From positions 248,001 to 312,000 of the forward strand of contig NZ_JABAIH010000004.1 of the NCBI RefSeq assembly GCF_012641395.1: a stretch of 64,000 bases of DNA, given 5' to 3'. Positions within the stretch are counted from its first letter, which is position 1, and each line of letters starts with the position of its first letter. This document shows, piece by piece, positions 27,543 to 37,449 of this stretch. The notes under the pieces were generated by a model. That model worked only from the letters and a program-made list of their open reading frames with translations. It had not been told where the DNA came from and did no database searches. This stretch comes from Rhizobium sp. P32RR-XVIII (GTDB taxonomy: Bacteria > Pseudomonadota > Alphaproteobacteria > Rhizobiales > Rhizobiaceae). Made by a program: the position numbers and the translations under genes.

Positions 27543-28595
27543 ATGGGAAGGGAGCGGGTGACCGTGATCGACATTGCGAACGCTGCAGGCGTTTCGAAGT
27601 CGACTGTGTCACTCGTTCTGCAGGGAAGCTCGCTCGTCAACGAAGGCACGCGGGCGAAGGTGAATGTCGCGATCCGCGAGCTCGGCTATGTCTATAACCG
27701 CGGCGCCGCCAATCTGAGACAGGCAAATGCCAAGTCGAAGATCGTCGGCATGGTGGTGAACGATCTGACGAACAGCTTCTTTGCCGAACTCGCCGTCGGC
27801 ATCGACAGCGTCATGCAATCGGCTGGTTACGTGCAGTTTCTCGCCAATACAGGCGAGAACATCGATCGGCAGCGCGAGGTCATAGCCTCAATGCGCGAAC
27901 ACGGGATCTCCGGGCTCATCATCTCGCCGGCACGCGGCACGGAAGCTGCCGATTTTCGGGCGCTCGCCCAGGCCGGGATTCCGGTGGTAGTGGCGGTTCG
28001 CAATGTCCCCGGTGCGCGGGTTTCGTCGCTGACTTCGGATAATCACGCGGGAGCGGCTGCTTCCGTTCGGCATCTTGCCGAGCTTGGCCATCGCCGTATC
28101 GCCTTTCTGGGCGGTTTTCCGGATACCGCGGTGTTTCACGAGCGCCTTGCAGGATATCGCGATGCGTTGAGCAGGGCAGGCCTGCACTTCGACGAGGATC
28201 TGGCAGTGGGCGCGGCACCGTCGCGGGCAGGCGGCGTTGATGCGATCGAGCGGGCGATGCGGCTTGCCGAGCCGCCGACGGCCGCGGTCTGTTTCAACGA
28301 CGCGGTTGCCTTCGGTGTCTGTGACGGGCTTCGAAGCAGGCGGATGGAGCCGGGCGCCGATTTTGCTGTCGTCGGCTTCGACGACGTCATCGAGGCAAAA
28401 ACGGCCGTCCCTGCGCTGACGACCGTTTCCGTCGATCCGCAAGGCATGGGCCGGCGGACGGCGCAGCTGCTCCTGAAGCAGATCAATTCGGGGACTACCG
28501 AGCCGGAGACGCTGATCAGCAACGTGCGTCTCGTGGTTCGCGAAAGCTCCGGCGCAAGCATTCAAGGAGGAGTGCGATGGCAAAGTGGGGTTTGA
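27543..28595 (+). CDS. LacI/GalR family transcriptional regulator
   Basis: The 350-residue repressor has an N-terminal LacI helix-turn-helix ([21 protein letters not shown], in part) and a periplasmic-binding-protein-like sensor domain (about residues 60-340) ending with the usual [16 protein letters not shown] region. GGAGGAGG precedes the ATG at 27543. The gene overlaps the next by 19 bases, so it is the first cistron of the catabolic operon that it probably controls through the two upstream operators. The inducer is likely a sugar-like compound related to the operon's substrate. Confidence 0.92.
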
Positions 28596-29578
28596 TCGGC
28601 GCAAGTACGATTGCGAGAGAGTGGGTAATCGGCGCGATCCGCGCAGCCGGCGGCGAGGTCGTCTCCGTGATGAGCACGGATGCAGCGCGCGGCCAGGCTT
28701 ATGCAGTCGAGAACGGGATTGCGAAATCGGTGACGAGCGTCGCCGATCTCGTCAATGATCCTGAGGTCGAGGCCGTCTATATCTCGACCACCAACGAGCT
28801 TCATCGCGACCAGACGCTGGCGGCCATCCAGGCCGGAAAGCATGTGCTCTGCGAGAAGCCGCTGGCTATGAGTCTGGCCGACGCCAAGGCCATGGTGAAG
28901 GCAGCCGGGGAGGCGGGCGTGGTATTGGCGACGAACCATCACCTGCGCAATGCCGCCACCCATCGGGCGATACGCGACGCGATTGCCGCCGGCAAAATCG
29001 GCAAGCCGCTCGGCGCCCGCGTCTTCCATGCCGTTTACCTGCCGCCGCATCTGCAGGGTTGGCGGCTCGACCGGCCGGAAGCGGGCGGCGGCGTCATTCT
29101 CGACATCACCGTGCACGATGCCGATACGCTGCGCTTCGTGCTCGGCGACGACCCGGTCGAGGCAATTGCCTTCGGCCAGAGCGGCGGCATGGGCAAGGCC
29201 GGCCTGGAGGACGCCGTCATGGGCGTGCTGCGCTTCAAATCCGGCGTGATCGCCCAGTTCCATGACGGCTTTACCACGAAATACGCCGAGACGGGGCTGG
29301 AGGTGCATGGCACCGACGGATCGATCGTCGCCCGTAACGTCATGACTCAGCGTCCGGTCGGCAGCGTGACTCTACGGAATGCGGAAGGCGAGACCGAACT
29401 CCAACTCGAAAGCACCAACCTCTACGAGGTGGCACTGCAGGCGTTCCACGATGCCGTGGCCGGGAAGGGCAAGCCGTCCGCGACGGGCGAGGACGGCGTC
29501 TGGTCGCTCGCGACCGGCCTTGCTGTCGTCGAAGCCGCAAGGACCGGCAAGTCGGTGAAGATCGAACCAGGACTTTGA
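28577..29578 (+). CDS. afr: 1,5-anhydro-D-fructose reductase
   Basis: The 333-residue Gfo/Idh/MocA-family enzyme should reduce 1,5-anhydro-D-fructose to 1,5-anhydro-D-mannitol with NADPH. Seen directly: the Rossmann start WGLIGAS, the EKP motif at residues 93-95, and [10 protein letters not shown] with Asp176 and His180. Lys94, Asp176 and His180 line up with catalytic residues I recall for AFR from Sinorhizobium morelense, and Ser10, Ala13 and Ser33 with its NADPH-site residues. Near-identical stretches recalled include [10 protein letters not shown] and HLQGWRL. It overlaps the regulator gene by 19 bases and leads the enzyme genes of the operon. Confidence 0.88.
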
Positions 29579-29579
29579 A

Positions 29580-35779: not shown

Positions 35780-35793
35780 GCGGGGGAGTTGAG

Positions 35794-37449
35794 ATGGCAT
35801 ATGACTACATCATTACCGGTGGCGGACCTGCCGGCTGCGTGCTCGCAAACCGGCTGAGCGAGGACCCGGAGGTCAAGGTGCTGCTTCTGGAAGCGGGCGG
35901 CAGCGATTGGAACCCACTGTTCCACATGCCGGCCGGCTTTGCGAAAATGACGAAGGGTGTCGCCAGTTGGGGCTGGGAGACGGTGCCGCAGAAGCATATG
36001 AAGGGCAGGGTGCTTCGCTATACGCAGGCCAAGGTGATCGGCGGCGGTTCGTCGATCAATGCGCAGCTCTATACACGCGGCAATGCCGCCGACTACGACC
36101 TCTGGGCAAGCGAGGACGGCTGTGAGGGCTGGGATTATCGCTCGGTTCTGCCCTATTTCAAACGCGCCGAGGACAACCAGCGTTTTGCCGACGACTACCA
36201 CGCCTATGGCGGGCCGCTCGGCGTCTCGATGCCGGTTTCCGCGCTGCCGATCTGCGACGCCTATATCCGGGCCGGCCAGGAGCTGGGGATCCCCTATAAT
36301 CACGATTTCAACGGCCGTCGCCAGGCCGGGGTCGGCTTCTATCAGCTGACGCAGCGCGACCGCCGCCGTTCGTCGGCCTCGCTTGGCTATCTGTCGCCGA
36401 TCAGGGACCGGAAGAACCTCACCGTCCGGATGAATGCGCCCGTGACGAGGATCGTGCTCGAAGGCAGAAAGGCCGTCGGCGTCGAAGTTGCCGGCCGCAA
36501 CGGCACCGAGATCATCCGGGCCGAGCGCGAGGTGCTGGTTTCTTCCGGCGCGATCGGCTCGCCGAAGCTGTTGCTGCAATCCGGCATCGGGCCTGCGGAC
36601 CATCTGAGAGCGACGGGCGTGGCGGTCAAGCATGATCTGCCCGGCGTCGGCGGCAATCTGCAGGATCACCTCGATCTGTTCGTCATCTCCGAATGCACCG
36701 GCGACCACACCTATGACGGCGTCGCCAAGCTACACCGCACGCTGTGGGCGGGACTGCAATATGTGCTCTTCCGCTCTGGGCCCGTGGCATCCTCGCTCTT
36801 TGAAACCGGCGGCTTCTGGTATGCGGATCCTGATGCGCGTTCGCCCGATATCCAGTTCCATCTCGGCCTCGGCTCCGGCATCGAGGCGGGCGTTGCCAGG
36901 CTGAAGAACGCTGGGGTGACATTGAACTCCGCCTATCTGCATCCCCGCTCGCGCGGCACCGTTCGCCTCTCGTCCGCCGATCCGGCAGCGGCGCCGCTGA
37001 TCGATCCGAATTACTGGAGCGACCCGCATGACCGGGCGATGTCGCTCGAGGGCTTGAAGATCGCTCGCGAGATCATGCAGCAAGCGGCGTTGAAGCCCTA
37101 CGTACTGGAGGAAAGGCTTCCGGGAACCGGCGTCGCCACTGACGAGCAGCTTTTCGACTATGGCTGCGCCAATGCTAAGACGGATCACCATCCGGTCGGG
37201 ACCTGCAAGATGGGCACGGATGGCGCGGCGGTCGTCGGGCTCGACCTGAAGGTGAGGGGGCTGGAAGGACTGCGTGTGTGCGACAGCTCCGTGATGCCGC
37301 GTGTTCCTTCATGCAATACCAACGGTCCGACGATCATGGTCGGCGAAAAAGGAGCGGATATCATCCGTGGGCGTGAGCCCTTGCCACGCGCCATCTTCTC
37401 CTGGGAGCGCAACGATACGCGGCCAAGAGCAAGGGCGGAGGTTCAGTAA
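35794..37449 (+). CDS. GMC oxidoreductase, choline dehydrogenase-like
   Basis: The 551-residue flavoprotein has YIITGGGPAGCVLANRL, the second GMC signature VIGGGSSINAQLYTRG, and the C-terminal HHPVGTCKMG/NTNGPTIMVGEKGADII site, in the pattern of choline, alcohol and polyethylene-glycol dehydrogenases. GGGGGAG precedes the ATG at 35794, 14 bases after the SDR gene. This is the last gene of the operon. Having two different GMC enzymes in one operon suggests two separate hydroxyl oxidations or two substrates. Confidence 0.88.
   Translation: MAYDYIITGGGPAGCVLANRLSEDPEVKVLLLEAGGSDWNPLFHMPAGFAKMTKGVASWGWETVPQKHMKGRVLRYTQAKVIGGGSSINAQLYTRGNAADYDLWASEDGCEGWDYRSVLPYFKRAEDNQRFADDYHAYGGPLGVSMPVSALPICDAYIRAGQELGIPYNHDFNGRRQAGVGFYQLTQRDRRRSSASLGYLSPIRDRKNLTVRMNAPVTRIVLEGRKAVGVEVAGRNGTEIIRAEREVLVSSGAIGSPKLLLQSGIGPADHLRATGVAVKHDLPGVGGNLQDHLDLFVISECTGDHTYDGVAKLHRTLWAGLQYVLFRSGPVASSLFETGGFWYADPDARSPDIQFHLGLGSGIEAGVARLKNAGVTLNSAYLHPRSRGTVRLSSADPAAAPLIDPNYWSDPHDRAMSLEGLKIAREIMQQAALKPYVLEERLPGTGVATDEQLFDYGCANAKTDHHPVGTCKMGTDGAAVVGLDLKVRGLEGLRVCDSSVMPRVPSCNTNGPTIMVGEKGADIIRGREPLPRAIFSWERNDTRPRARAEVQ

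Follow-up and report, generated by a model that had tools for sequence, protein, structure and literature searches.

A conserved Rhizobium operon with a 1,5-anhydro-D-fructose reductase homologue: a candidate CoA-linked route for 1,5-anhydrohexitols

Gene content of the operon

We analyzed a stretch of 64,000 nucleotides from Rhizobium sp. P32RR-XVIII (contig NZ_JABAIH010000004.1, positions 248,001 to 312,000; hereafter the window) that contains an operon of eight co-directional genes on the forward strand, among them one for a homologue of 1,5-anhydro-D-fructose reductase (AFR). The first gene (27543-28595) encodes a LacI-family regulator of 350 amino acids with the Pfam domains LacI and Peripla_BP_3, its ATG having been picked by ribosome site. 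It is followed by the genes for the AFR homologue (28577-29578; 333 amino acids, Gfo/Idh/MocA family), a YdiF-like family I CoA-transferase (29580-31193; 537 amino acids, Pfam CoA_trans), an enoyl-CoA hydratase of the crotonase family (ECH, 31186-31959; 257 amino acids, Pfam ECH_1), an aldehyde dehydrogenase (ALDH, 31959-33467; 502 amino acids, Pfam Aldedh at 1.4e-169), a GMC flavoenzyme (GMC1, 33501-35003), an SDR of the PRK12745 family (35003-35779; 258 amino acids, motif YCISK), and a second, choline-dehydrogenase-like GMC protein (GMC2, 35794-37449; Pfam GMC_oxred_N/C). According to the open reading frame coordinates, the successive gaps from LacI to GMC2 are -19, 1, -8, -1, 33, -1, and 14 bp, and every gene has one terminal stop. 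An earlier reading of the window, made from its sequence only, had described eight tightly spaced co-directional genes at 28577-37449. The spacing of at most 33 bp holds, but this interval covers seven genes; the eighth is the LacI gene, which starts upstream of 28577 and overlaps AFR by 19 bp.

In a PDB sequence search, the AFR homologue aligned over its full length with 2glx_A (5.5e-173, 577.8 bits) and 4koa_A (5.5e-172, 574.5 bits), the solved AFR structures from Sinorhizobium; the next match scored 127.7 bits. The end-to-end alignment bears out the assignment made in the sequence-only reading. All six residues named there as defining the AFR of Sinorhizobium morelense (Ser10, Ala13, Ser33, Lys94, Asp176, and His180) are found in the window protein, and across 93 aligned AFR rows each is conserved in at least 97%. 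Enzymes of this class use NADPH to reduce 1,5-anhydrofructose, giving the manno product. AFR was detected in 43 of 199 Rhizobiaceae genomes at E 1e-60, and in 17 of 398 genomes of the phylum at E 1e-70.

The CoA-transferase matches YdiF (2ahu_A, 1.2e-105) and shares its architecture. Its segment IEQGAVGG contains the catalytic-type Glu328, which is conserved in aligned relatives and fits ExGxxGG, the motif of the catalytic glutamate in family I CoA-transferases. The protein was found in 15 of 385 genomes of the class at E 1e-120 and in 22 of 398 genomes of the phylum at E 1e-150. Recoding was considered for the in-frame TGA codons reported in distant CoA-transferases. At locus L147, the case that was analyzed, it was rejected, since the TGA there terminates the gene itself and lies one codon short of the match end. 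ECH carries E112 (in GGLELA) and E132 (in LPETGLG); across 111 aligned rows, each is present in at least 97%. Since these correspond to the crotonase active-site glutamates, Glu144 and Glu164 of the rat enzyme, the protein has what is expected of a hydratase or dehydratase.

GMC1 matches 6a2u_B by sequence (6.8e-45), and its AF2 model (pLDDT 90.8) superimposes on this structure with a VIA Z score of 38.6 over 472 residues (rmsd 2.9). Its best solved relatives by sequence and structure are the Burkholderia FAD glucose dehydrogenase, fructose dehydrogenase, and pyranose 2-oxidase. As modelled, GMC1 groups with GMC enzymes that oxidize sugar rings, and the fold leaves the oxidized carbon undefined. 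The SDR scores 358.6 bits against NF009386 (cutoff 250). GMC2 matches 9lq0_A (1.4e-114) and resembles choline dehydrogenase and alcohol oxidases, so that a primary alcohol is its expected substrate.

The operon is part of a larger conserved cluster

We compared two sets of AFR-anchored loci from related genomes, and further such loci came from plasmid records. The first comprises 80 named loci, the best of at least 473 confirmed AFR relatives and selected for AFR similarity; because all are Rhizobiales by name, they are not independent. The second comprises 40 stretches from 39 Rhizobiaceae genomes (G073 contributing two), i.e., the 43 AFR-bearing genomes minus the window genome, G045, G089, and G154. 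A gene was also counted as examinable if it was found in a stretch below the length rule, and ratios for ABC, GMC1, SDR, and GMC2 were used for the family stretches only.

Among the loci listed, the usual order is a divergent DUF993 gene, LacI, AFR, CoA-transferase, ECH, ALDH, a sugar ABC transporter of four genes (binding protein, two permeases, and ATPase), GMC1, SDR, and GMC2; genes for a Dabb protein and a glycerate kinase often close this larger cluster after GMC2. The co-occurrence across Rhizobiales that the sequence-only reading had proposed as a check is indeed seen and exceeds chance: LacI lies directly 5' of AFR in 80/80 named loci, and CoA-transferase, ECH, and ALDH follow downstream in all 79 with enough sequence. 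The divergent DUF993 gene is present in 74 of the 80 and lacking in L008, L009, L014, L021, L024, and L027. In the family stretches, LacI is directly upstream in 32/40, CoA-transferase and ECH are present in 39/40, ALDH in 38/40, ABC in 36/39, GMC1 in 38/39, SDR and GMC2 in all 38 that are long enough, and DUF993 in 38/39. Dabb was found in at least 24 and glycerate kinase in at least 16 of 37 stretches, which end nearby. Where AFR is less than 70% identical (15 stretches, 50-66%), the CoA-transferase follows it in 14 and LacI is directly upstream in seven. The stretch of L133 (AFR 50%) contains neither CoA-transferase nor ECH.

By gene content, the window copy is a trimmed version of this larger cluster. 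The compact form, in which GMC1 directly follows ALDH as in the window, occurs in 17 of 126 loci, including L008, L009, and those of Brucella/Ochrobactrum. The remaining genes also vary in position: in Microvirga, the divergent arm facing LacI-AFR consists of glycerate kinase and DUF993, in the distant locus L131 GMC2 is followed on the same strand by Dabb, DUF993, LacI, and glycerate kinase, and in L126 Dabb comes last. The sequence-only reading had assigned domains in the window copy, and the transporter, DUF993, Dabb, and glycerate kinase of the relatives lay outside its view.

Elsewhere in the window genome, the ABC genes are found on contig 66 (binding protein 82%), the best DUF993 on contig 11 (59%), and the best glycerate kinase on contig 33 (66%). 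The binding protein of contig 66 is close to 4r2b, presumably a structure holding glucose, and more distantly related to the glucose-binding protein 2b3b (1e-36). On this contig (L140:7274-14919), the cluster-type sugar ABC transporter is free-standing; by eye, the next genes on the opposite strand resemble those for a glycoside hydrolase and an SMP-30-type lactonase.

Operator and predicted regulon

Upstream of the operon, 33 bp 5' of the LacI ATG, lies a perfect palindrome of the LacI operator type, TTGGAACGTTCCAA (27496-27509). A motif scan revealed a second LacI-type operator with one mismatch, TTGGACCGTTCCAA (27421-27434). The two matches in the window at no more than two mismatches compare with 0.15 expected, and two sites occurred in 1 of 100 shuffles. 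An exact copy of the 10-base core GGAACGTTCC precedes LacI in 79 of 118 loci; another 27 carry it there with a single change at a permitted position. An exact copy also precedes DUF993 in 68 of 114 loci, mostly in the intergenic stretch common with LacI.

In the whole 7.2-Mb genome, TTGGAACGTTCCAA has four sites at no more than one mismatch, two at the window operon and two on contig 88. The latter belong to an operon (L143:10435-16139) with LacI (73%), CoA-transferase (87%), and ECH (77%), followed by a FAD_binding_2 protein of 694 amino acids. The genome is thus predicted to contain a regulon of two operons, the AFR operon and that of contig 88. The flavoprotein of contig 88 has a distant likeness to succinate dehydrogenase and aspartate oxidase. 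Taken together, sequence comparison identifies the window operon as real, conserved, and, by prediction, co-regulated, with a single recognizable enzyme activity.

DUF993 and an alternative hydrolase

The DUF993 protein of the relatives has the TIM-barrel fold of the DHDPS superfamily (VIA Z score 29.8, 286 residues, rmsd 2.3). The first structure match is 4dnh (SMc04132), followed by DHDPS rows including YagE with Z about 29. Lys229 in the motif GIK is invariant in 23 sequences and lies on strand 225-231, by count the sixth strand of the barrel, which makes it a putative Schiff-base lysine of the kind expected in this superfamily. We found no publication on DUF993 in the literature searched, which held few subscription papers.

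At locus L146, a FAH open reading frame ends 3 bp before that of glycerate kinase, within a cluster of CoA-transferase, ECH, SDR, DUF993, and GMC2. The closest model of this FAH protein is NF053535, 2,4-didehydro-3-deoxy-L-rhamnonate hydrolase, with 366 bits over positions 1-280 of 284, which is below the cutoff of 500. A FAH gene also lies near the 48% AFR of Komagataeibacter.

A proposed route for 1,5-anhydrohexitols

We tentatively propose, with less than even confidence, that the LacI-controlled operon serves the catabolism of 1,5-anhydrohexitols, i.e., of 1,5-anhydro-D-mannitol and, through it, of 1,5-anhydrofructose and 1,5-anhydroglucitol. The conserved cluster looks like an aerobic route from a cyclic sugar relative via a CoA ester and ring opening to pyruvate and glycerate. 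AFR, by homology to close relatives of known activity, would convert 1,5-anhydrofructose to 1,5-anhydro-D-mannitol, and GMC1 probably admits 1,5-anhydroglucitol by oxidizing a ring hydroxyl at C2 or C3. GMC2 and then ALDH would oxidize C6 of 1,5-anhydromannitol to the acid, which the CoA-transferase would convert to a thioester. The general sequence of oxidation, acid formation, CoA activation, and processing of the ester had been suggested in the sequence-only reading and is compatible with the domains detected. Overall, the observation made there is partly confirmed and its interpretation partly supported.

In such a CoA ester, the alpha carbon would be C5, which bears the ring ether, and the beta carbon C4, which bears a hydroxyl. 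This C4 hydroxyl lies cis to H5, and its elimination by ECH might yield a 4,5-enol ether. Crotonases eliminate syn, and the position of H5 and the C4 hydroxyl on one face in both the manno and the gluco series would suit them. Addition of water onto C5 would then open the ring and give 2-keto-3-deoxy-D-gluconate (KDG), an isomer of the anhydro acid: the C6 acid of 1,5-anhydromannitol has the formula C6H10O6, identical to that of KDG. C3 and C2 of the mannitol would become C4 and C5 of the product, both right in the Fischer projection, which corresponds to the D-erythro configuration of KDG, while the glucitol epimer would yield the L-threo acid. The D-erythro product would hence arise from 1,5-anhydromannitol and not from 1,5-anhydroglucitol, a possible reason for the manno configuration of the AFR product. 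The SDR may subsequently oxidize the C4 hydroxyl of KDG, and C-C cleavage by DUF993, or by the FAH hydrolase in one relative, may release pyruvate and D-glycerate. Glycerate kinase could pass the latter into glycolysis; the DUF993 and kinase genes would act from outside the window locus. The C2 reduction by AFR would in this manner set up D-glycerate as the substrate of the kinase.

This route draws support from the identity of AFR, the glucose-type binding protein, the kin of GMC1, and the glutamates of ECH, as well as from the divergent DUF993 gene with its operator core, the DHDPS fold with Lys229, the clustered glycerate kinase, and the FAH gene of L146. The identical formula of the anhydro acid and KDG and the dextrin induction cited for smc04396 (PMC4960864) also speak for it. 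One part of the proposal goes further and is rather unlikely on present evidence, namely that CoA-transferase and crotonase act as a joint cycloisomerase from 1,5-anhydromannuronate to KDG, that DUF993 is a new C-C cleaving enzyme working through a Schiff base, and that this unit is common to sister clusters with different front ends.

Evidence against the route and alternative readings

Several observations weigh against the anhydrohexitol route. The assignment of its substrate rests on the identity of AFR, on a sugar transporter that stands at the locus in relatives only, and on one report that smc04396 is induced by dextrin (PMC4960864), a gene taken by its locus number as that of the binding protein of this cluster. 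A scan of the window at E 1e-5 detected no DUF993, Dabb, glycerate kinase, or matching binding protein and permeases. A search for the operator at the separate ABC, DUF993, and kinase loci of the window genome found none, which for DUF993 and the kinase also weighs against the route. In addition, a function of DUF993 as KDG aldolase had to be rejected. Standard DHDPS-family aldolases have the motifs GTTGE and YNxPxRT, and in the DUF993 consensus these are replaced by EAMDTxQRGMG and LHWLGDMFDP.

The AFR gene and the CoA-linked remainder are, moreover, separable in both directions in the loci compared. L174 and L175 keep LacI, the operator, CoA-transferase, ECH, ALDH, ABC, GMC1, SDR, GMC2, and Dabb without AFR. 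L172 and L173 likewise lack AFR and agree with them as far as the binding protein, after which their contigs end. Two further AFR-less clusters, L147 and L176, are less closely related and also without SDR. The operator core is present in L147 and L172-L176, and no AFR was detected at E 1e-70 in the genomes of four AFR-less clusters (G029, G194, G067, and G682). Conversely, AFR occurs in stretches without CoA-transferase: beside a GMC1 relative in Bradyrhizobium (L090, 64%), in Komagataeibacter (L092, 48%), in Arthrobacter (L093, 46%), at L158 (66%), and beside ABC and GMC genes at L133 (50%) and L159 (43%). We therefore rejected the earlier view of an AFR-led operon, as LacI stands first and AFR is absent from L174, L175, L172, L173, L147, and L176. 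The retention of the remaining genes in L174 and L175 likewise does not agree with AFR as an obligatory first step.

These AFR-less loci raise the possibility, which we consider only slightly less likely than the anhydrohexitol route, that the cluster degrades another glucose-like cyclic polyol or glycoside-derived acid. AFR would then belong to that pathway by virtue of a 2-keto intermediate, its action on 1,5-anhydrofructose being a side activity. L174 and L175 contain all other window genes and L147 and L176 also do without AFR, the binding protein has sugar- and glucose-binding proteins as relatives, and the CoA-linked core reappears with other transporters and dehydrogenases. However, AFR is by far nearest to enzymes named for 1,5-anhydrofructose, and it lies between LacI and CoA-transferase in 79/79 named loci with both sides visible, a count from loci that were selected by AFR.

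The reappearance of the core is best seen in a sister type of cluster on S. meliloti pSymA and on Rhizobium and Sagittula plasmids, which combines CoA-transferase (69-74%) and ECH with another ABC transporter, an alcohol dehydrogenase, an ALDH (about 50%), a GMC2 relative, and variously Dabb, glycerate kinase, and SDR. Among five such clusters (L160 from S. meliloti ml28 pSymA, L161, L162, L163, and L165), DUF993 and SDR are each present in four and ETF in two. Their content points to a recurring core of primary-alcohol oxidation, ALDH, CoA-transferase, ECH, SDR, DUF993, and glycerate kinase. Four of them (L160, L162, L163, and L165) also encode an acyl-CoA dehydrogenase, which counts against the anhydrohexitol route and would suit a core resembling beta-oxidation. 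In that case, the SDR would oxidize the beta carbon of the acyl-CoA, DUF993 would cleave it to glyceryl-CoA and a second fragment, and the CoA-transferase would release glycerate. We regard this as improbable. It has a parallel in the scheme proposed for deoxyribonate in Klebsiella, where the cluster encodes a beta-hydroxyacyl-CoA dehydrogenase, a thiolase, a CoA-transferase, and a glycerate kinase (PMC6365646), and it fits the ETF genes of two sister clusters. On the other hand, the eight window proteins include neither an acyl-CoA dehydrogenase nor a thiolase, and the AFR clusters examined have none annotated within them, the nearest case being a thiolase about 8 kb upstream of, and outside, one relative's cluster; beta cleavage of a cyclic C6 acid would, by reasoning, also leave an ether. 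All five sister clusters encode aldo/keto reductases.

A further possibility follows published work on AFR. According to the review PMC12441222, which cites Kuhn 2006, a P450-like enzyme of Rhizobiaceae converts 1,5-anhydromannitol to mannose by hydroxylation at C1, and the same text gives the route from 1,5-anhydrofructose via 1,5-anhydromannitol to mannose as proposed for S. morelense. The sequence-only reading had known of no complete pathway from 1,5-anhydrofructose to central metabolism. If oxygenation at C1 yielded D-mannose in the window organism, the CoA genes would not be needed and the remaining operon genes would serve another purpose, an outcome that we consider quite improbable. 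Pfam detects no oxygenase domain among the eight operon proteins, to which this search was confined, the linked CoA-transferase, ECH, ALDH, SDR, and GMC genes would stay unexplained, and the enzyme behind the mannose route is called still unidentified in the accessible text of PMC12441222. That text covers the enzyme and the mannose route, and not the surrounding CoA-linked cluster.

The closest solved relative of ECH, 5zai_A (1.3e-46), is a 3-hydroxypropionyl-CoA dehydratase, which again does not favor the anhydrohexitol route. It would agree with a scheme in which GMC1, as one of the ring oxidizers, forms a 3-keto sugar whose beta-elimination opens the ring to glycerate and 3-hydroxypropanal, the latter being converted to acrylyl-CoA by ALDH, CoA-transferase, and ECH. 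Such a scheme is very unlikely in our view: an acrylyl-CoA reductase is not annotated inside the AFR clusters examined, a diketone-cleaving enzyme is not evident, and GMC2 and SDR would be left without a step.

Relation to known pathways

The route proposed here for 1,5-anhydrohexitols has counterparts in several known systems. In the 3,6-anhydro-L-galactose pathway, an enolase-superfamily cycloisomerase opens the ring of the free anhydro-sugar acid to a 2-keto-3-deoxy acid; the isomerization is similar, but here CoA-transferase and crotonase are proposed to carry it out instead. In the diketo-hydrolase pathways of L-rhamnose and L-fucose, an SDR acts as 4-dehydrogenase, and the 2,4-diketo-3-deoxy acid is then hydrolyzed to give pyruvate and a C3 acid. 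In contrast to these, FAH was seen here in one relative cluster, L146, and near the Komagataeibacter AFR, and DUF993 is the usual candidate for this step. The anaerobic 1,5-anhydroglucitol and anhydromannitol pathways of E. coli, which use a PTS and the glycyl-radical enzymes YbiW/PflD, act on the same substrates (PMC12441222). They are oxygen-sensitive and proceed via phosphorylated compounds, whereas the route suggested here would rely on flavin oxidoreductases, ALDH, and a CoA ester. The deoxyribonate cluster of Klebsiella michiganensis shares a CoA-activated sugar acid, glyceryl-CoA, and an end at glycerate kinase, but it names a CoA-synthetase and a thiolase, and hydratase, AFR, GMC, and DUF993 are not mentioned in the portion of PMC6365646 at hand.

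1,5-Anhydroglucitol is the precursor of the toxic metabolite in two inherited neutropenias (PMC12441222). This 2025 review calls for an enzyme that degrades it aerobically and states that no analogous oxidative pathway for it has been described. The literature searched yielded no publication joining anhydrofructose with CoA transferase or glucose 3-dehydrogenase with anhydroglucitol, and among the titles listed in the broader anhydroglucitol literature there was none on an aerobic pathway. The cluster supplies candidate genes for the aerobic use of 1,5-anhydrohexitols, which are present in S. meliloti, a genetically tractable laboratory species, and DUF993 gains a first testable function. Furthermore, several sugar-acid pathways of Alphaproteobacteria seem to draw on a modular CoA-linked route. 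Beyond the sequence-only reading, our analysis adds the extended cluster, the operator with the predicted two-operon regulon, the division into core and modules, and a stereochemically specific candidate route.

Of the S. meliloti locus tags looked up, six gave no match in the literature searched. The proteins SMc04390-04392 are tabulated in a comparison involving phaR with log2 changes between -1.8 and -2.4, and SMc04401 appears in predicted-regulon tables; neither these entries nor the dextrin response of smc04396 decides function.

Additional observations

CoA-transferase and ECH genes were also seen in other surroundings. At L148:4938-13440, they are accompanied by a Gfo/Idh/MocA gene, a TRAP transporter, an SDR, and an enolase-superfamily enzyme, which suggests a sugar-acid substrate. 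At L149:12100-17095, the pair is divergent from an SDR, a MaoC-type hydratase, and a LacI gene. Behind the AFR-less cluster of L176 (18467-19901) lie a Gfo/Idh/MocA gene with 35% identity to AFR over part of its length and the beginning of a gene related to that of the contig 88 flavoprotein (68% over 62 residues). Within the window, an Old-yellow-enzyme-type FMN oxidoreductase is encoded downstream of the operon (38385-39539), and a metallo-beta-lactamase-fold protein is encoded on the opposite strand at 40106-41080.

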